Shown one piece after another: positions 9,250-41,880 of a DNA stretch of 64,000 bases. Each line of letters begins with the position of its first letter. Position 1 is the first letter of the stretch. Source of the stretch: Terriglobia bacterium (GTDB taxonomy: Bacteria; Acidobacteriota; Terriglobia; JAJPHL01); the NCBI GenBank assembly GCA_021325275.1, contig JAJPHL010000037.1:186001-250000 (forward strand). Reading direction: 5' to 3'. The position numbers and the translations under genes were made by a program. Below the pieces are notes generated by a model. The model had not been told where the DNA came from and did no database searches. It saw nothing but the letters and a program-made list of their open reading frames with translations.

Positions 9250-10146
9250 ATGGATTACGCGCAGATTCGCGCGGTGGTGGAAGTAGCGCGCTTGCAGAGT
9301 TTTTCGCGCGCCGCCGAAGCGCTGGGACTCACGCAACCCGCGATTTCCGCGCAGGTCCGCGCCGCCGAAGATGAATGCGGCTTCCGTCTTTTCGATCGCT
9401 TGGGGCGCAACGTGTATCTCACGCGTCCCGGCGCGGTGCTCGCCGACTACGGGCGCCGATTGCTGACATATCGCCGCGAAGCGCATCGCGCCCTGACGGA
9501 TTTGCACGCGGGTCCAGCGGGCAGTTTGCTTCTCGGCGCAACCGAAGCCATCTGCACGTATCTTCTTCCCGCCATCATCAAGGAATATCGCGCGCTGCAT
9601 CCGAATGTGGGCGTCAGTATTTTTCGCCACAACACGAATCGCGTGGTGCGCAAGTTGTCGGAGGGGGCGCTCGACGCCGGATTCGTTTCGCTGCCGGTCT
9701 CTGCAGACGATTTACAGGTGACACCCGTCTTTAAGGACCGCTGGATGGCTGCGGTGTCCGCGAACAATCCGCTGGCGCACGCCGATAAAGTCCGCGTGGA
9801 GGATTTGCTGCAATTTCCGTTCATCCTGCCGGAATCGGGACACACCCGCACGGTGATGGATCGTTTGCTTGCGCCGCATCGCCGCCGCGCGAAAATCGCG
9901 TTCGAGATTTCCGGTATTGAGGTGATCAAGCGCTTCGTCGCTGAAGGCATGGGCGTGACTTTGCTCAGCGAGACGTACGCCGCCGAGGAAGTGGCGGCCG
10001 GCCGCCTGAAGATGATCCCGATCGCCGGCGAAAAACTGTCGCGGGAAATTGGCTTGGCCGTGCGGCGCGACGACTATTTGCCGCAAGCGGTGCGCGCCTT
10101 GATCGCGGTGACAAAGAAACTGCATCTGGGCAAGCGGAAGAACTAG
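9250..10146 (+). CDS. LysR-family transcriptional regulator
   Basis: A 298-residue LysR protein, clearly paralogous to its divergent neighbour: helix-turn-helix FSRAAEALGLTQPAISAQVRAAE and substrate-binding region with shared strings such as VVRKLSEGALDAGFVSLPVS. Only 24 bases separate the two start codons. LysR genes usually lie divergent to a target operon; here the partner is another regulator, so the pair may cross-regulate. Ligand unknown. Confidence 0.94.
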   Translation: MDYAQIRAVVEVARLQSFSRAAEALGLTQPAISAQVRAAEDECGFRLFDRLGRNVYLTRPGAVLADYGRRLLTYRREAHRALTDLHAGPAGSLLLGATEAICTYLLPAIIKEYRALHPNVGVSIFRHNTNRVVRKLSEGALDAGFVSLPVSADDLQVTPVFKDRWMAAVSANNPLAHADKVRVEDLLQFPFILPESGHTRTVMDRLLAPHRRRAKIAFEISGIEVIKRFVAEGMGVTLLSETYAAEEVAAGRLKMIPIAGEKLSREIGLAVRRDDYLPQAVRALIAVTKKLHLGKRKN

Positions 10147-10152
10147 GATTTT

Positions 10153-10433
10153 TTAACCACAAAGACACAAAGAACACAAAGCAGAACGCCCGCCCGAGCA
10201 GTTCAACACAGAGCACACAGAGAACGCAGAGAGCACAGAGAAAAACAACACCATCGAACAAAATGGTCCGGTAGACTCGCAACAGACGCCAGAGGCTTGC
10301 CATCGTCGGGGCCGTACTCGTCTGCGGATTTGATTTCTTCCCTTAGCCTGTTACCTCGTTCTTGTTTTTCTCTGTGCTCTCTGTATTCTCTGTGCGCTCC
10401 GTGTTAATCCGGCTTTGTTGTCTTTGTGGTTAA
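10153..10433. repeat. Intergenic hairpin D (nested CACAGAG-type arms)
   Basis: The largest hairpin of the window, filling the gap between a LysR gene and a convergent membrane-protein gene. Outer arms: 10153-10172 and 10413-10433 (TTAACCACAAAGACA type). Inner arms: 10205-10248 and 10362-10405, 44 bases each, matching at 40 of 44 positions, built of CACAGAG-like units. The loop of about 113 bases (10249-10361) has no recognisable gene. The right outer arm overlaps the stop of the gene that ends at 10430. Confidence 0.93.
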
Positions 10434-10960
10434 TTGCCCTCCGGCGGGCGGTTCGCGGACCGCACGGCCGTCGCCGCGCCGATGGCCGCTAGAAGAACAT
10501 TTACGACGAGCACTGAGAGACTCGCAAAGCAATACATCACGATCAGGCCGTCTCTGCTGGTCATCCAATCGAGAATCTCGCGGGTCTGCGCGTCATTAGG
10601 CTTCGACTGTCGTAAATGTTCGGAGGCGATCATCGCGAAATCCCAGAATCCCACGTGAAGCAGCCGGTTCGCGAGCATGCTCACCGCGAGCCACACGAAA
10701 AACGCGAAGGCTCCCGTCAACATGCCCAGGCGCGCGCCGTCCGACGTGCGCCGCGGCACGAATCCGTTCATTAGTTTGAAGAAATACACGGCCAGCATTC
10801 CACCGCCGCTGAGCCACAAGCAGAATCCCTCGCTCAGCAGCGGCACACCGGTCAATACGCCGGAGCAAATCGCCGCCCAGAAAGCCGGCTGAATGTAGTC
10901 GCCGGGCGGCAACGCATCGGTGTCCGGTGGCGGCGGCACGCCTGTGGTGATCTCGTCCAC
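10430..10960 (-). CDS. Hypothetical membrane protein
   Basis: A 176-residue protein of no recognised family with a Pro/Asp-rich N-terminus and four likely membrane helices (about residues 27-45, 48-66, 80-100 and 145-170). The start is taken as the GTG at 10960, which overlaps the preceding gene's stop (TAGTG) and has AGAGG upstream; an ATG at 10984 would overlap that gene by 25 bases. Third gene of a small operon of membrane-anchored proteins. Confidence 0.7.
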   Translation of the reverse strand: MDEITTGVPPPPDTDALPPGDYIQPAFWAAICSGVLTGVPLLSEGFCLWLSGGGMLAVYFFKLMNGFVPRRTSDGARLGMLTGAFAFFVWLAVSMLANRLLHVGFWDFAMIASEHLRQSKPNDAQTREILDWMTSRDGLIVMYCFASLSVLVVNVLLAAIGAATAVRSANRPPEGN

Positions 10961-11454
10961 TATTGATCGTCCTCTTTGATCCAAACCAAACGGATGTGTG
11001 GACGGCCGTCCACTTCCTTCACGGAAATGAATCGCAATGGAAGGTCCTTGAACGTAAAGCGATAGGCGCCTGGTTTTCCGTCGGGACCGTTCTCTCGCGT
11101 CTCCACGGTTTCCTTGGCAAAGAGATTGCGATAGTTGGCCAGCACTTCGTCCATTTCGTCGTGCGTCTCAAACTCCGCGGTCACGGCTTCGAAAACTCCG
11201 GACGTCGGCAATTCCACGGCGATGCGCGCTTCGGACTCCGGCACCGGCCGCGAGTTGCCGTACATGGCCGCGGCAAAAACCCTGTGAATCGGCGTATCTT
11301 CACGTTGCGGGGTAAAGTGCGGCGCGCTCGACGACATCTGGCGATTGATGTATCGCGAGAGAAAGTATCCGCCCACCGTCATCAGCGCGATGGCCAGGGC
11401 GACCGCGCCCGCGAGAATGGGCAGCAGGCTCGTTTCTTTCTTCCGCTCGCTCAT
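10960..11454 (-). CDS. Hypothetical single-pass membrane protein
   Basis: 164 residues with a short basic N-terminus, one membrane helix (about residues 11-33) and a soluble, probably periplasmic, domain. No family was recognised. Its start codon overlaps the stop of the DUF2085 gene by four bases (ATGA), and its stop overlaps the next start, so the three proteins are translationally coupled. Confidence 0.75.
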   Translation of the reverse strand: MSERKKETSLLPILAGAVALAIALMTVGGYFLSRYINRQMSSSAPHFTPQREDTPIHRVFAAAMYGNSRPVPESEARIAVELPTSGVFEAVTAEFETHDEMDEVLANYRNLFAKETVETRENGPDGKPGAYRFTFKDLPLRFISVKEVDGRPHIRLVWIKEDDQ

Positions 11455-11849
11455 GCCTCTTGCTCCCGTGCCGGAAGCATCTCCGGAAGTACCGGCGCCG
11501 CGAACCAGCCGAGCGCGGATCCCGTGGCGAGCCGCAACATGGCGATCTCGTGAGGCAATCCGGTTGCTTCAGTGATTACGTCAATCGTCACCATCGCGGC
11601 CGCGGCCAGCAGGCCGTTACGCGAGAATCTCGCGCGGCATACCAGCGAGACAAGCGCGCCGAAATAAATTCCCGTGCACCGTGCGCACAACGGCATCGGT
11701 TCAGCGGCGATCCAGAACGATCGCGCGGGAATCTGATGGCACACCGCGCTGAACGCAAGGCGCACCAGTGTCCAATGCGCGGGTCCCGCCGCGAGTGCGG
11801 CGACACAAACAGCGGTCAGGAGTGTGGTGAAGAGCGCGCGGCCCTGCAT
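11451..11849 (-). CDS. DUF2085 family membrane protein
   Basis: 132 residues with the family signatures CHQIPARSF and PLCARCTGIY, whose His and Cys residues could bind a metal, and four hydrophobic segments. The biochemical role of DUF2085 is not known. First gene of the three-gene operon; a perfect TATAAT lies 7 bases before its ATG. Confidence 0.88.
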   Translation of the reverse strand: MQGRALFTTLLTAVCVAALAAGPAHWTLVRLAFSAVCHQIPARSFWIAAEPMPLCARCTGIYFGALVSLVCRARFSRNGLLAAAAMVTIDVITEATGLPHEIAMLRLATGSALGWFAAPVLPEMLPAREQEA

Positions 11850-11856
11850 GAAATTG

Positions 11857-11862
11857 ATTATA
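11857..11862 (-). promoter_or_regulatory. Consensus -10 box overlapping the upstream stop codon
   Basis: TATAAT on the minus strand, 7 bases before the ATG at 11849 and without a Shine-Dalgarno site. The TAA stop of the acyl-CoA dehydrogenase gene (11858-11860) lies inside the hexamer. No good -35 was seen. Confidence 0.5.
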
Positions 11863-13039
11863 CGTACGCCGCGATTCCCGTGACGCGTTCGCCAATCACC
11901 AGCGTGTGAATGTGATCAGTGCCCTCGTACGTTTTCACCGATTCCAGATTGCACATGTGGCGGAAAATCGGATACTCGTCGGCGACGCCGTTGGCGCCCA
12001 GCAAGTCGCGGCACTTCCGTGCGATATCCAGCGCGATCGCCACATTGTTGCGCTTGAGCATGGAAATGTGCGAGTGGTGCAGCTTGCCCTTGTCTTTCAA
12101 GCGCCCGCAATGGAGCGCCAGCAATTGCCCCTTGGTGATTTCGGTGATGCAGTCGGCGAGTTTTTCCTGCACCAACTGGTGCGACGCAATCGGCCTACCG
12201 TCGAATTGTTTGCGCTCGATCGTGTATTGCCGCGCGCACTCGTAGCACGCCATCGCCGCGCCGAGCGCGCCCCATCCGATGCCGAATCGTGCTTGATTCA
12301 AGCACGCCAGCGCCGATTTCAGTCCCTCGGACTTCGGTAAAAGATTCGCCGACGGGATTTTCACGTCCGAAAGATACAAGCTGGAAGTCACCGACGCGCG
12401 CAGCGAGAATTTTCCCTTGATGTCAGCGGACGTAAAGCCCGGCGTTCCTTTTTCCACGAGGAATCCGCGAACTTTGCCGCCGTGCTCGTCGGACTTTGCC
12501 CACACCACCGCGACGTCGGCGATGGTGCCCGACGTAATCCACGTTTTTTCGCCGTTCAACACGTAGTGGTCGCCCTCGCGGACCGCGCGCGCGCGCATAC
12601 CGCCGGGATTCGATCCGAAATCGGGCTCGGTGAGTCCGAAGCAGCCGATGGCTTCGCCCTTGGCCATCGCCGGCAGCCACTTTTGTTTTTGTTCTTCCGA
12701 TCCGAAGGAGTGAATCGGATACATTACCAGCGCGCCTTGCACGGAGACGAAGCTGCGCAGGCCGCTGTCACCGCGCTCGAGCTCCTGCATGATCAATCCG
12801 TAGTCGGTGGAGGTCATGCCGGCGCATCCGTAGCCGTGCAGGCTCGCGCCGAGAAAACCCAGTTGTCCGAACATCGGCACGAGCTGTTTGGGAAATTTCC
12901 CCTCGCGATTGTATTCGTCGATGATGGGAACGACTTCCTTTTCCACGAACTGGCGCGCGGTTTGGCGCACCATCAATTCTTCCTCGCTGAACAGCGTGTC
13001 GATGTCCATGTAATCGACGCCACGAAAGGGAAATGCCAT
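11858..13039 (-). CDS. Acyl-CoA dehydrogenase, glutaryl-CoA dehydrogenase-like
   Basis: A 393-residue flavoenzyme that should oxidise glutaryl-CoA or a related acyl-CoA to the enoyl-CoA (decarboxylating in true GcdH) in lysine/tryptophan or aromatic breakdown. The FAD-binding stretch CFGLTEPDFGSNPGGM and the C-terminal VKTYEGTDHIHTLVIG, which contains the Glu expected to be the catalytic base in GcdH, are visible. The start at 13039 follows a GGAGG site; a longer frame to 13177 is not used. A TATACT -10 candidate lies at 13069-13074. Confidence 0.92.
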   Translation of the reverse strand: MAFPFRGVDYMDIDTLFSEEELMVRQTARQFVEKEVVPIIDEYNREGKFPKQLVPMFGQLGFLGASLHGYGCAGMTSTDYGLIMQELERGDSGLRSFVSVQGALVMYPIHSFGSEEQKQKWLPAMAKGEAIGCFGLTEPDFGSNPGGMRARAVREGDHYVLNGEKTWITSGTIADVAVVWAKSDEHGGKVRGFLVEKGTPGFTSADIKGKFSLRASVTSSLYLSDVKIPSANLLPKSEGLKSALACLNQARFGIGWGALGAAMACYECARQYTIERKQFDGRPIASHQLVQEKLADCITEITKGQLLALHCGRLKDKGKLHHSHISMLKRNNVAIALDIARKCRDLLGANGVADEYPIFRHMCNLESVKTYEGTDHIHTLVIGERVTGIAAYV

Positions 13040-33534: not shown

Positions 33535-36099
33535 ATGGGATTCGACAGCCTCTGGCAGGATTTTCGCTTTGCCTTGCGCGTCCTCACAAAAAACAAGGCG
33601 TTCACTTTGATCGCCGCACTGATGCTCGCGCTCGGCATCGGCGCCAACACGGCGATCTTCTCGGTGATGCACGCCGTGCTGCTCGAGCCGCTCCCGTACA
33701 AAGATCCGCAGCGGCTCACGATCGTCGCCAGCGACATGCGCAAGCGCAGCGTGAACGATTTTCCGCTCTCGAACGCCAATTTCATGGACCTTCGCAACAA
33801 CACGAAGAACTCGTTTGAGGCACTCGCCGCCGTGCGCACGAATCAACGCGTGGTGCCCGCCGAGGACGGCACGTCCGAGCAAGTCACCGTCGGCCTGGTG
33901 ACGCCGAATTTCTTTTCGTTGATGGGCGCGCATGTGATCGCCGGTCGCGATTTCCAGGATGATGACGCGCGTCCGCAGCCGGCTCCTGCGGTTCCCGCGA
34001 ATCCGGTTCCGACGGCGGCGCCTGCTTCCGGCGCTGCTGCCGCTGCTGCCGCTGCTGCTGCTCCACCTGCCGCGCCCGCGGCCCCGCCGCTGCCGACCAT
34101 CGCGATTCTCAGTTACGAATATTTCCAGCGCCGCTTCGGCGGTAATCGCGGAATCGTCGGTCAAACGATTCTGTTTCCCGGCACGGGACCTCAAGTGGTC
34201 GGCATTCTGCAACCAGGATTCGAAATCCTGATGCCGCCGCAAATGAACATCCTGCCGCATCCCGATTATTGGATCGCCGCGCGCATGAATTACGACGCCG
34301 CGCAGCGCATGAACGTGAGTTGGCAAGTGGTTGGACGTTTGAAGGATGGCGCGCGTCTCGAATCGGCGCAAGGCGAAGTCGACGGCGTGGCCGCCGATTT
34401 GCGCCAGCATTACGCGATTCAGAACACGGCGGGCATGGCGTTTCGCGTGGAACCGATGCAGAAATATCTCTCGGCGGGCGTCGCGCCGGTAATCGTGATC
34501 CTTATGGGGGCAGTGGTTTTCCTCTTGCTGATCGCGTGCGCGAACGTGGCGAATTTGCTGCTGGTGCGCGCGTCGTTGCGTGAACGCGAACTCGCCGTGC
34601 GCGCGGCGCTCGGCGGAAATCGCTGGCGGCTGTTGCGGCAAATGCTGGCGGAAGCGTTGGTGCTCGCCGCCATCGGCACGGGATTGGGATTGGCGCTGGC
34701 GTGGGCGGGCATCAAGGAGCTGATCGCGCTGGCGCCGGCGAATTTGCCGCGCTTGCAAAACGTCACCATCGATGCCAACGTCTTGGGCTTCACGCTGGCC
34801 GCCGGTTTCGCCGCCGCCATGATCTTCGGCCTGGCGCCGGCGCTCTTTGCCTCGCGTCCCGATTTGTTTCATGTGCTGCGATCCGGCGGCCGCAGCGCGG
34901 ATTCCGGCACGCTTGCGGGAAAATTGCGCCGCAATGTTCTGGTGGTGGCTGAAGTCGCGCTGACCTTTGTGCTGCTCACCGGCTCTGGTCTGATGATTCG
35001 CAGTTTTATCGAGCTGCAACACATCGATCCGGGCTACGATCCGCATAAAGTTTTAAGCTTCCTCCTGCTCGGTGGACGCAACGCGCAAAATCCGCAGCAG
35101 GCCGCCGAGTTTATCCGCGAGACGCAGCGGCGCTTGAAGGCAATTCCGGGCGTCGAAGCCGTTACCGCGTCGACGCCATTTCCGCTTGCCGGAGGATACA
35201 ATCCCATTCGCTGGGGAACCGAAGAAGCGCTCGCCGACAATAGCAAGTTCAAAGCCGTCGACTGGCAAGTGGTGCTGCCGGGATATTTCGAAGCTATGAA
35301 GTCGCGTTTGATCGATGGCCGCACGTTCACCGACGCCGACAACGTTCTCGATTCGAAAAAAGTTTTGATCGACGACATGCTCGCCGCCAAGGCGTACCCG
35401 CACCAGTCGGCGATTGGCAAACGCATCTTGATTCGTTTACGCACGCCCGAACCCGAGTGGGTGGAAATCATCGGTGTGGTGGGACATCAGCGCGATACCA
35501 CGCTAGCCGAAGCGGGTCGTGAGCAAATTTACTTCACCGATTCGTTCTTGAGCTACGGCGCGGTGGCGCGCTGGGCGTTGCGCACCAACGGCGATCCAGC
35601 AACGGTCGGTGACGCCGTTCGCGCCACGGTTTCCTCGATGGATCCGAAAATTCTGATCGCCGAAATGCAGCCGATGGAGACGCTGGTGACGAAATCGGAA
35701 TCGGCGACGCGTTTTTCGCTGTTGCTGATCGGAATTTTCGCGGCCATCGCCGTGGTGCTGGCGTCGGTGGGACTCTACGGCGTGCTTTCGACGGTGGTGC
35801 GCCAGCGCACCGCTGAGATCGGCGTGCGCATGGCGTTGGGCGCTCGTCCTATGAGCATTTTCAATTTAGTTGTTGGTCATGGAATGCGCTTGACCATTGC
35901 GGGGCTTTTGGTCGGCATCATTGCCGCTTTTGCGCTCACCCGCGCGATGACCTCGATGCTGGTGGGCGTCGCGCCCACCGATCCCGCGACGTTTTTCACG
36001 ATGGCGCTGGCGTTTCTCGTGATCGCGGTGATGGCCGCGTGGCTGCCGGCGCGCCGCGCCGCGAATCTTGCGCCGACGGTCGCGCTGCGGGAAGAATAG
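33535..36099 (+). CDS. Orphan MacB/FtsX-type ABC permease with Ala/Pro insert
   Basis: 854 residues, same two-module layout as the permeases at 866-5810 ([40 protein letters not shown]). No ATPase or adaptor lies next to it. Residues about 146-188, in the periplasmic core, are a low-complexity run of Pro and Ala with ten consecutive Ala; the paralogues lack it. The insert keeps the frame and looks like a flexible linker or a repeat expansion. Confidence 0.92.
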
Positions 36100-36261: not shown

Positions 36262-39200
36262 CTAGGGTTTCCCGCTTTGATTGACGCTCGCGCCACCCCC
36301 GCTGGTTGGTGTTTCGCGAGAGATCACATCAAACCTTTCTCTGAGCTTTGAAATCGGTATGACATCTTCGGGCGGCATAGGGAGGCCTCTTGTGTACTGC
36401 ATCGGGACTACGGTGTTTGTCACCATGAGAGCTTTAATTCCTGAAATAGTGCCAAGATTCAGGACTCGCGCAACTTCCTGACGGTTATTGTTCAGCCATT
36501 CGCTTCTCCGCAGATGTTTGGCCATCTCGTCGTTTGCCTCTCCTTTGAAGCGCCGGAGTTGCTCCGCAATCTCACCGACTGTCCTCGCGAACCATAGGCT
36601 TTTGCATTCGACAACATAGACACGTCCGCCCTCCCAAGCGAGCACGTCTATATCGCCAAGGTCGCCGAGATCCCTCGGTACCAAGAGCTCCGTCATTCGT
36701 ACGGACGCTCGCGCATGCAGGCCGAGTGCCCCGAATTCGCGCGCAACGCGGTCGTTGAATTCGTGTCCTCTGCGGTTGTTTGCCCGCCCGACCCATGCCT
36801 TCATTAGATCGCTCAAGAATTCGGGGCCCAACGAACCGTCATGGGCACCACCAACAGCCTGCGCAAAGGCATCGCGATTTAGACCAGGCGAGAAAATCAT
36901 TAGATCGCCGAGGTCGAGGATAGGGCGGGCCAACAACGACAGTCGGCGTCCGAAGCGCCACGGATACCAGTCTTTGTTTTCGAAGCCAGCCGGCGCGCTG
37001 TCCCACCGTGGACGAGAGGTGAGACAGAACCTCCTTAAGAACGCCTCAGATTCCTCATGGTTCAAAGAGGCTAAAGCCAGCAGCCGAACCAGTTCGTCGC
37101 GCGAGATCTCCGCGACGAAAGATTTTCGATCGACAGCGTACTGTTCCATTGCGTCCGCCACCGAGAGTAGCTGAGGTAACGAAAAACCATGTTCTGTCCG
37201 GAAAGCGTCAACAAACTCTGCTTCGACGACATCCTCAATTCGTCGTGACGCCCGCTCCCTATATAGCTCCGAATAGGTTTCAGCACTTTTTTCGAGCAGG
37301 TCGACGAAATATCCGTCCTGGTATGGACGAAGGACCTCCTCAACATATTCCTGAGAGTTTATGAACTCGCCATTCGGGAAAATGCGAACTTCGGGCTTAG
37401 CAAAGTTCGCCCGAATACCGTCGGATGCGTGCGCGATCGCGACAAGATGCGACACTCGCGCGAGAAGGGCATCGTATTCGGCCGATCCGATCTCGTCGCC
37501 ACCTTCGGATGGGCAAGTGCAGAGCGCCATTTCTGCGAGTACGCGCGTTGCTATGGTTGCGCGGCTAATATCATTTTCATGCTTTTGTGATACGTCGAGC
37601 GCTTCGCGCTCGTCTTCGGTCAGCGCGATAATAGCTTGCGAGGTTCGACGCCACAATGCACGATCGATCTCAAGAGCGTCAAGATTCCCCAGACAGGCAA
37701 CTAGCGCGGAGCGACGGTCAAGCTTAACCAATTCTCCTTTAATCTTACGCCAGAGTGCGTCCACAGTAGAATTCAGGAATTTGCCACAGCCATCTGTCCC
37801 TTCAATAGTGAACGAGTCTTCCCGGGGTGTTTCGACTTCCCATGCGAGGCCGAGCATTGTAAGACTCTGATCCGGCTCGGCCACGATCCTCGCCGAGGTC
37901 CTCTTAAATTGCGCAATCTCATCGCGGACGTTCTGAAGGACGAAGGTATGCATGAAGCGTGCTTGGTCGGATGGAACCGCTCCATTCGCCAGCTCGCGTG
38001 CGATATTCGCATCCCCGGCGCCGGCCAAAGCCAAGCACCCGTTGGCGAACGCCTCCACGAGTTCGCGTTCAAAGAGATTCTGCGGTCGGCGAAGTAGGCT
38101 CCACATTTCTGGTCGTAACCGCAGTCTGACCTCATTGGCGCTTGTGATCTCCGCTTCAACGGAAGCAGCCGACGTCTCTGCGGTACGACATTCCCAGAGG
38201 CTTTCATCGCTGAAATCAATCTGTACGGCGACATCACCTTCAAGGGCATTGAGATGGACTTCGAGGGTACGGCTCAGCCGCATGGCCCATTTGAGCGCAG
38301 TTTCGAGAAGATGCGCTTGCATGTCGAACTGTCCCTCATCTTGACCAACAGGAACGCATTCGATCCAATAGCGCCTTGCACTCGTCTCGGCCATTCCGCG
38401 TAGTCTCCCATGTGCAATGTCATCCGGACTGACATAGATGGGACGGTTCTCCTCCTGCTTGAACAACGACTTGTAGTTTAGCCGCCTAAACGGGAGCCAA
38501 TCGCTTTCGCCCGCTCGACGCGCACCATGCCAGTCAAGGGCCTTTCGAGCCTTACTTCTGAAGGAGAAGGAGTACCCAGGCTCGACGCTAACGTTTAGGC
38601 TCTCCAATGCAACAGGACAGTGCCGCGGAAGAAGCCGATATCCGTTTGCCTCCCAATAGGAATACAACTCCACAAACCCACCGCTGGCGACAATCGGAAT
38701 CCCGCGGCTCTCGGCGACTTTCAGATGTTCCGCGAACTTCCACAACTGAAGTGGCCAATCTTGCCCGTGCCACTCTGTAAACCTAACGAAATCGGACAGA
38801 GACCAGAACTGGAACCCCCAGCCTCGCTGCATGGCGGGACTATATTGCAGACCAATTCCCCGTCCAACACCGCCGATCACGGCAACGGTAAGCCCGCTCG
38901 ATAACCCTCGTGAGCCGAAGACCTGACTCGCGAGCGCCACGTGAGCGGTCAGGCGCAGTTGGTCCGCATGCGATGGTAGATGTTGGACAAGTAGTCCGTC
39001 TTGAACTGCGGCGTTGAGGTCATCGTGCAAAAGCAGGAGGTGCAAGCCTTTGTTTTCATCGAAGGAATATGCTTCCGCGCAAACAAACCCCGGCGGAGTA
39101 ACTCCTTCAGGGGTCCAATCTGCAAGTTTGTTCCCACGAAGAGGCCGCGTAGCGTTGGAAAACACACGCCTCTCCTGTTGGGATTTCAAACCTTTGATGA

Positions 39201-40158
39201 AATTCGGCCAGCGCTGAGGTACGCGGCCGAACGCAAGGAGTATGTGCCTCCTGATACTGGCGCCGATGGCCGCAGGAATTGCGACGATCCATTTGCCGTC
39301 AATCTTCAGAAGAGGATGGCGCTCAAGAGACGAACTCTGGAGTCGCTGCTCTCGAAGCTGAGAGTATCGAGCGAAGTCGAATTCGAATGGTTGTAGGTGC
39401 TCGGGCCGAATGCCCAGTTTATCCAAGTCTGCGGTAGAAAAGGAAACTCTGAGTGCAAGGGCTTCGGGATCTCCAACAATCGAAACCGCCCTTGTCGGAG
39501 CACCTTCACTCGAAACAAATCTCGCCAATCCGGTTCTCGTTGCAATTTCGTCGCTCAGCAGCAGAAGCGCGGCTACTTGCTCTTGCAAACTGTGGTCGCC
39601 GAGGTCGCGTGTCGCGTCGAGCGCTTCCTGGAGCCAGAAGTCGGCGCCCTCCCAGTTTCCACAAAAAACTCTCCGGTTTCCGCGATTTGTGATGACGTTC
39701 GCAATGCACACGTCGTCTATTGGGTCTTCCAGATTGCGTAGCAGACTCGAAGAGAAGCCTGCGTTGATGACAGCCGCTAGATCTTGCGTCGACGGCCTCG
39801 TGTCTCCGCGGGCGAAAGCAACGACAATATGTTGAAGGGCTTCGAGTCGCGCCCAATTGGGTTGCAGTATCGGATCAGCCATAACGCCGGCGACCAGGGC
39901 GGACGTAAAGCCCAGCTCCCACATTCGAATCTTGTTCAAGCTGGCTTCGGGAAAAGCCGAGAATATCTGCTCAATCAGATCAGCCGCGTGCAATTCTTCC
40001 ATGCGTTGCGCAATCTTATCGGGGATGTCCTGGCTCGTTCCCATTGCAATCGAGGCGACCTCGATAATTCTATCAGTCACGTCATGCGTGTACTTCGCGG
40101 CGTTATCGCCTGCAGTCATCCATTTGCATCTGAGGTTAGTGTGGCGGGAAACACGCAT
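36262..40158 (-). CDS. Giant orphan protein with C-terminal PD-(D/E)XK-like nuclease motif
   Basis: 1298 residues, not recognised as any named family. No signal peptide or membrane helix is evident. The first two thirds look alpha-rich and mixed, without Walker or helicase motifs. Near the C-terminus GDIDVLAW (Asp1171) is followed by YVVECKSLW (Glu1184, Lys1186), the D-x12-E-x-K spacing of a PD-(D/E)XK nuclease, preceded by a helix with HEFNDRVAREF and followed by a long helix FARTVGEIAEQLRRF, as in restriction-type cores. Codon use is visibly more AT-rich than in neighbours, suggesting transfer. The first ATG (40158) is used; ATGs at 40119 and 40044 are alternatives and none has a clear ribosome site. 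Size, isolation and the nuclease suggest a single-gene defence factor, but that is inference. Confidence 0.8.
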   Translation of the reverse strand: MRVSRHTNLRCKWMTAGDNAAKYTHDVTDRIIEVASIAMGTSQDIPDKIAQRMEELHAADLIEQIFSAFPEASLNKIRMWELGFTSALVAGVMADPILQPNWARLEALQHIVVAFARGDTRPSTQDLAAVINAGFSSSLLRNLEDPIDDVCIANVITNRGNRRVFCGNWEGADFWLQEALDATRDLGDHSLQEQVAALLLLSDEIATRTGLARFVSSEGAPTRAVSIVGDPEALALRVSFSTADLDKLGIRPEHLQPFEFDFARYSQLREQRLQSSSLERHPLLKIDGKWIVAIPAAIGASIRRHILLAFGRVPQRWPNFIKGLKSQQERRVFSNATRPLRGNKLADWTPEGVTPPGFVCAEAYSFDENKGLHLLLLHDDLNAAVQDGLLVQHLPSHADQLRLTAHVALASQVFGSRGLSSGLTVAVIGGVGRGIGLQYSPAMQRGWGFQFWSLSDFVRFTEWHGQDWPLQLWKFAEHLKVAESRGIPIVASGGFVELYSYWEANGYRLLPRHCPVALESLNVSVEPGYSFSFRSKARKALDWHGARRAGESDWLPFRRLNYKSLFKQEENRPIYVSPDDIAHGRLRGMAETSARRYWIECVPVGQDEGQFDMQAHLLETALKWAMRLSRTLEVHLNALEGDVAVQIDFSDESLWECRTAETSAASVEAEITSANEVRLRLRPEMWSLLRRPQNLFERELVEAFANGCLALAGAGDANIARELANGAVPSDQARFMHTFVLQNVRDEIAQFKRTSARIVAEPDQSLTMLGLAWEVETPREDSFTIEGTDGCGKFLNSTVDALWRKIKGELVKLDRRSALVACLGNLDALEIDRALWRRTSQAIIALTEDEREALDVSQKHENDISRATIATRVLAEMALCTCPSEGGDEIGSAEYDALLARVSHLVAIAHASDGIRANFAKPEVRIFPNGEFINSQEYVEEVLRPYQDGYFVDLLEKSAETYSELYRERASRRIEDVVEAEFVDAFRTEHGFSLPQLLSVADAMEQYAVDRKSFVAEISRDELVRLLALASLNHEESEAFLRRFCLTSRPRWDSAPAGFENKDWYPWRFGRRLSLLARPILDLGDLMIFSPGLNRDAFAQAVGGAHDGSLGPEFLSDLMKAWVGRANNRRGHEFNDRVAREFGALGLHARASVRMTELLVPRDLGDLGDIDVLAWEGGRVYVVECKSLWFARTVGEIAEQLRRFKGEANDEMAKHLRRSEWLNNNRQEVARVLNLGTISGIKALMVTNTVVPMQYTRGLPMPPEDVIPISKLRERFDVISRETPTSGGGASVNQSGKP

Positions 40159-40348: not shown

Positions 40349-40780
40349 CTACAACGCAGACGTACAGTGCGCACATTTCTTCGCTGCCGCCGGAATCGTC
40401 GACAAGCAGAACGGACACTCTTTCGTCGCCGGGGCGGGCGCGGGAGCCGGCGGCGGATGCAGCTTGGTGGCCATGCGCACCACGCAGAAAATCGCGAACG
40501 CGACGATCGTGAAGTTCACGATTGTATTCAAGAATTGTCCATAGGCGATCACCGGAGCGCCGGCGGTTTTTGCCGCCGCGAGATTCGGATAGCTCTGCCC
40601 GTTCAAGACGACGAACAACTCTTTGAAATCGATGCGGCCCAGCAGCATTCCAATCGGCGGCATGACGATGTCATTCACCAGCGACGTGACGATCCCGCCG
40701 AACGCGCCGCCGATCACCACCGCTACCGCCAAGTCCAGCACATTGCCGCGCATGACAAACGCTTTGAAGTCTTTGAACAT
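40349..40780 (-). CDS. mscL: Large-conductance mechanosensitive channel MscL with zinc-ribbon tail
   Basis: 143 residues. The N-terminal helix and first membrane segment ([27 protein letters not shown]), the periplasmic loop and the second membrane segment ([19 protein letters not shown]) are standard MscL, the emergency valve against osmotic downshock. After a Pro/Ala linker ([10 protein letters not shown]) comes CPFC-x10-CAHC, a likely zinc ribbon in the cytoplasm where E. coli MscL has its helical bundle. The start at 40780 follows GGGAGA; a frame to 41023 overlaps the divergent gene. Confidence 0.95.
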
Positions 40781-40839
40781 GGTCTTCTCCCAAATCCCAA
40801 CACGACGATAACAGAGTGTTGTGCTATTGTGCCTAGCAT

Positions 40840-41880
40840 ATGCCGAAAAACCTGATCTTTCTCTCCGATGGCACGTGGGATCGCCCGACCGTGGCGGCTT
40901 CCGGCAATTCGAATGTGGTGCTGCTGCGCGATCGCCTGGTGAACGACGCGACGCAAGTGGTCGCCTACGACGACGGCGTCGGTGCGACCGGCAATATCGT
41001 CGAGCGATTGATCGAGGGCGCATTCGGCGACGGACTTTTTCAGAAAGTGAAGGATGGATATTCCTTCTTCGTCAAGAATTACGCCGTCGGCGATCCCATT
41101 TATGTTTTCGGATTCAGCCGCGGCGCGTATACCGCGCGGTCGATCGCCGGAATGGTGGCGGTGTGCGGACTGCCGACGCAGAACATCGCAGCGTTCGACG
41201 TGAATCAAGCGTGGGCGGCGTATCGCCAGCGCGATCCGGCCAAACGTCAGGCGGCCCTGGATGCGCTGAACGCGCAGTACGCCATGGATAACGCGCAGAT
41301 CACGATGGTCGGCGTATGGGACACCGTCGGGTCGCTGGGGATTCCCGCGCTTTTCGGCGGCGTCGATGCCTTCAAGGACGGATTCCTCGACGTGAACCTG
41401 CATCCCGACGTTCACAACGCGTATCAGGCGCTGGCGGTCGACGAAGCGCGCCGCGAATTCCCGGCGACGCTTTGGAATCCCGATATCGCGCCGCACCAAA
41501 CGCTCGTTCAAGTATGGTTCGCCGGCGTTCACACAAACGTCGGCGGCGGCGAGGTGAAGGGTTTTCTCTCGACTATTCCGCTGGTGTGGATGATGCGTGC
41601 GGCGTCGCGCTGCGGCGCGGTGCTGACGCCTGCCGCGCAGACGCAACTCACAGAGAGTTTATCGCCGTGGATCTACGACGTGATTACGCCGGCCGATCTT
41701 ATTCCTTGGGGGCTGCCGGTGCCGCGCACGATCCCCGCCGACGCGACGGTCGCGGACAGCGTGAAAATCCGCCTGCTCAACGATCCGACGTACAAACCGT
41801 CGCAGTTCACGCCGTCGAGCAAGTTGGACGGGCATCCGATTGAAGCCGTTGTGGAAATTGCCGCGGCTGCTGGGAATTAA
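40840..41880 (+). CDS. DUF2235 alpha/beta-hydrolase
   Basis: 346 residues. FLSDGTWD at the start and the nucleophile elbow GFSRG (Ser93) in [15 protein letters not shown] mark the DUF2235 family, which includes type VI phospholipase effectors (Tle1) as well as housekeeping hydrolases. No secretion partner or immunity gene is adjacent, so an effector role is not supported here. TATTGT lies 9 bases before the ATG. The stop codon is the first triplet of hairpin F. Confidence 0.88.

Follow-up and report, generated by a model that had tools for sequence, protein, structure and literature searches.

The large gene that lies alone between a permease gene and mscL in the window (the whole 64-kb stretch of DNA analysed here) very probably encodes a functional, single-protein defence factor of the Upx family, as judged from sequence and predicted-fold homology. 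The name Upx denotes an uncharacterised (P)D-(D/E)XK defence protein, and Gao et al. reportedly tested it experimentally. The gene is a single ATG-started open reading frame of 1298 codons (Table 1). It is a real gene and not a chance frame, because full-length homologues are present in many phyla.

The initial annotation had described the protein as undescribed, and this has to be given up, as it belongs to a known family. The PADLOC Upx model matches it with E=5e-153, aligning residues 78–1257 to positions 45–1251 of a 1271-position profile, and the NCBIfam model Upx_antiphage ('anti-phage protein Upx', NF042954) matches with E=2e-171. In a sequence search of the PDB, the sole significant chain was 9wuf_A (E=4e-101, residues 80–1238), an entry that the fold library titles 'Cryo-EM structure of Upx' (release 2026-02-11) and for which our literature search found no paper. 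Pfam recognised no domain anywhere in the 1298-residue protein, and PHROGs gave nothing useful. Hence the earlier statement that the first ~1100 residues hold no recognised domain is right for Pfam but not for the PADLOC and NCBIfam Upx models.

The window protein is a distant relative within this family, with ~25–31% identity to other members. Its NF042954 score of 571.8 bits lies under the equivalog cut-off of 1900 bits, which stands for functional equivalence. This cut-off marks near-identical function and not the limits of the family, because Upx homologues of Vibrio europaeus (834 bits) and Pseudomonas (1538 and 1688 bits) also fall under it. Since the window protein shares this shortfall with other homologues, we file the gene, on its homology, as a divergent Upx family member and not as a proven functional equivalent. 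All the family features that could be checked were found in it: full-length collinear homology, fold, nuclease residues and the lack of a constant partner gene.

We modelled residues 79–1265 with AlphaFold from an alignment of the window protein with 62 homologues taken from genome contigs, and obtained a model with a pLDDT of 91.4 and a pTM of 0.91. Foldseek against the PDB returned a single significant match for the whole model, 9wuf (E=8e-65, TM-score 0.82/0.81 over 1240 columns), with ~24% identity in the structural alignment, and there was no significant match beyond Upx in either the PDB or the viral models. The C-terminal piece modelled alone (pLDDT 91.0) runs helix, strand, strand, strand, helix, strand, which is the classic alpha-beta-beta-beta-alpha-beta order of PD-(D/E)XK nucleases, and Foldseek matches it to 9wuf, with weaker hits that include nucleases of this type such as R2 retrotransposon proteins, Hjc and RecB. 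D1171, E1184 and K1186 occur exactly where the initial annotation had placed its Asp, Glu and Lys. In the model, the second strand bears D1171 and the third bears E1184 and K1186. Strands 1169–1176 and 1179–1186 form a tight hairpin, so that D1171 comes to stand opposite E1184 by simple register counting; by the same count the three residues are on adjacent strands and not far apart in the predicted structure. The model topology, the match to 9wuf and the invariant D, E and K uphold the proposed C-terminal nuclease, and we conclude that the protein has a predicted PD-(D/E)XK domain with an intact D-E-K site.

Table 1. Features of the Upx-family gene, in window coordinates.
Feature	Position	Strand	Basis
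Upx-family protein gene, 1298 residues	36262..40158	-	ORF; PADLOC, NCBIfam and PDB 9wuf_A matches
PADLOC Upx-matching stretch, residues 78–1257	36388..39927	-	PADLOC; predicted fold of 79–1265 superposes on 9wuf
Predicted PD-(D/E)XK nuclease core, ~residues 1117–1247 (helix, three strands, helices, strand)	36418..36810	-	AlphaFold, Foldseek to 9wuf
Asp1171 codon, predicted metal ligand	36646..36648	-	Invariant, 83 homologues
Glu1184 codon, predicted metal ligand	36607..36609	-	Invariant, 83 homologues
Lys1186 codon, predicted catalytic lysine	36601..36603	-	Invariant, 83 homologues

All 83 full-length homologues share the predicted active-site residues D1171, E1184 and K1186. The conservation of D1171 is partly a matter of data selection, because GD[VI]D forms part of one of the two patterns by which 80 of the loci were gathered. 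Neither pattern covers E1184 or K1186, and all three residues are kept in nine sequences compared earlier, outside the pattern scan. As to the search itself, a genome scan with a single sequence found no relatives, and an alignment of nine sequences gave no usable pattern; an alignment of three yielded one. Across the 83 sequences C1185, H1215 and R1218 are nearly invariant. Residues W598, N694, R872, E876, R1049 and R1071 of the body are invariant or nearly so, like the active site, which indicates that the body is also under constraint. The 83-sequence alignment offers sites for mutational tests of Upx.

The composition of the window gene is foreign. Its GC content is 0.553, compared with 0.617 and 0.593 in the two 10-kb flanks and 0.605 in the 64-kb window; this is the second lowest value among 602 gene-sized sliding windows, and effectively the minimum. 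GC3 is 0.585 versus 0.70–0.79 in most other window genes, with an equal or lower value in two or three other window ORFs. The codons are thus more AT-rich than the flanks, as the initial annotation had noted, and the reported isolation between a permease and mscL is confirmed as well: an FtsX/MacB-type permease is encoded at 33535–36099 on one side, and on the other a long ORF at 40349–41023 encodes MscL, with the MscL domain starting at residue 82. Synteny was dropped as an insertion test because the permease belongs to a greatly expanded family, with 175 match places in its own genome, and because, in the comparison of flanking genes, just one of eight relatives gave a match to ORF 40840–41880. 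Encoded on the strand opposite to the long mscL ORF, in whose 5' part it begins, this ORF strongly matches the catalytic domain of a Tle1-like phospholipase (DUF2235-type, E=1e-68). No tRNA gene was found in the 64-kb window.

Among the 87 loci examined, no neighbour family occurs in more than six and no partner gene is constant, so the homologues have no general neighbour and do not sit in fixed housekeeping neighbourhoods. The commonest neighbour families, serine recombinase among them, reach six of the 87 loci, with HsdR in five and HsdM in four. Because there is no general neighbour and serine recombinase, HsdR and HsdM recur in a few loci, these data support the view that Upx stands alone and moves in the company of defence and mobile genes. 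In three loci Upx lies beside or inside a type I restriction-modification operon. The order is HsdM, HsdS, Upx, HsdR in L046:287-9638, where the genes are co-directional and the Upx and HsdR frames overlap; HsdM, HsdS, Upx, a PIN/VapC-like ORF, HsdR in L057:3769-15793; and HsdM-like, HsdR, a 255-aa ORF, Fic, Upx in L042:90-11636. Given this placement, the three loci suggest that some Upx proteins may work with restriction-modification. Directly downstream of Upx, the Vibrio group has a gene (L118:11643-12227; also in L069 and L072) for a hydrophobic protein of 194 aa that belongs to no known family and is probably a membrane protein.

Upx is a rare gene, found in many phyla and probably spread horizontally. 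The counts of genomes with a match were 2 of 61 for relatives, 3 of 396 for the phylum and 8 of 399 for the class, with the genome of the window included. Homologues are present in Pseudomonadota, Bacillota, Gemmatimonadota, Nitrospirota, Planctomycetota, Spirochaetota and others, and conjugative plasmids of Bosea and Sinorhizobium carry them; no relative turned up in viral contigs or phage records. In Pseudomonas, Upx is reported to be concentrated in a genomic-island hotspot (PMC12629846), and Gao_Upx is reported from Vibrio europaeus (PMC13249269). Phyla are intermixed in the tree, where the window protein and the homologue from one genome of the same class form a pair (SH-aLRT 99); the window protein has an end branch of 0.99 changes per column. 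Two homologues (L024:6543-10457 and L026:1011-4928) have an N-terminal SEC-C zinc-binding motif, CxCGSGxK[FY]xxC, which is absent from the window protein and from the other full-length homologues. In a genome of the same phylum, a tandem of divergent Upx-like genes lies on the minus strand with 5 bases between the two (L027:5569-9285 and 9291-12947), and these might work as a pair.

Reading the gene as a defence factor of this family is supported by its low GC and GC3, its patchy occurrence, the plasmid copies and the lack of a constant partner. The ~25–31% identity, the score under the equivalog cut-off and the eight flanking genes, none of which was recognised as a defence or mobile-element gene when scanned, count against it. 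The deep divergence seen in the end branch, together with these flanking genes, would also fit a Upx-family protein that was repurposed in its lineage, for example for DNA repair or plasmid exclusion, and kept its nuclease. We consider this very improbable, as the gene belongs to no conserved housekeeping set (8 of 399 class genomes), its composition is foreign, and its relatives sit with restriction-modification genes and recombinases and on plasmids.

Some Upx copies are indeed broken. The copy on a Sinorhizobium meliloti conjugative plasmid (L010:3273-10133) is in pieces with IS66-family genes between them, and split copies occur in L114 and L030. Decay of the window copy into a non-functional gene is even less probable than repurposing, since it is one open frame of 1298 codons with all key residues intact and gives a confident full-length model. 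An unrelated large protein with a convergent nuclease tail, and hence a new single-gene system, might be imagined from the empty Pfam result, and its chance is negligible: it is ruled out by two independent Upx models (PADLOC and NCBIfam) that match collinearly over the full length, by superposition on the solved 9wuf structure and by the near-invariance of the six body residues across the family.

The preferred reading therefore remains a functional Upx defence protein, in agreement with the single-gene anti-phage factor first proposed from the window sequence, which fits the Upx models, the patchy occurrence and the restriction-modification, recombinase and plasmid contexts. We infer that the large N-terminal part may sense or assemble. 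By analogy with the family, the ~1100-residue body would, during phage infection, detect some signal or structure linked to infection, or be activated by it, and would release or position the C-terminal nuclease. With D1171, E1184 and K1186, the nuclease would then hydrolyse nucleic acid in a metal-dependent reaction. A later paper (PMC10855318) credits Gao et al. 2020 with Upx and groups it with systems that degrade nucleic acids; our search of the literature on the Upx mechanism found no account of its trigger or substrate. It is conceivable, if unlikely, that the window protein and the homologue from one other genome of the same class, a Upx with an additional N-terminal SEC-C zinc motif, form a deep branch that differs from the Upx tested so far in the trigger or substrate that it recognises. 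The window gene itself is an ordinary member of the Upx family.

Among known systems, the window protein is closest to Upx (Gao_Upx; PADLOC PDLC02221; NCBIfam NF042954; PDB 9wuf). The two are alike in size, with collinear full-length homology, in overall fold, in a C-terminal PD-(D/E)XK nuclease with a D-E-K site and in having no constant partner gene; they differ in sequence, at ~24% identity to 9wuf and about 572 bits versus the 1900-bit cut-off. The viperin-associated NERD protein of PADLOC has the nuclease superfamily fold in common with the window C-terminus (a weak match, E=7e-4), and the Hjc resolvase, RecB and the R2 endonuclease share the C-terminal nuclease fold as weak Foldseek hits. 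In contrast to Upx, the likeness of the NERD, Hjc, RecB and R2 nucleases to the window protein is confined to the nuclease core, and they are without the large Upx body.
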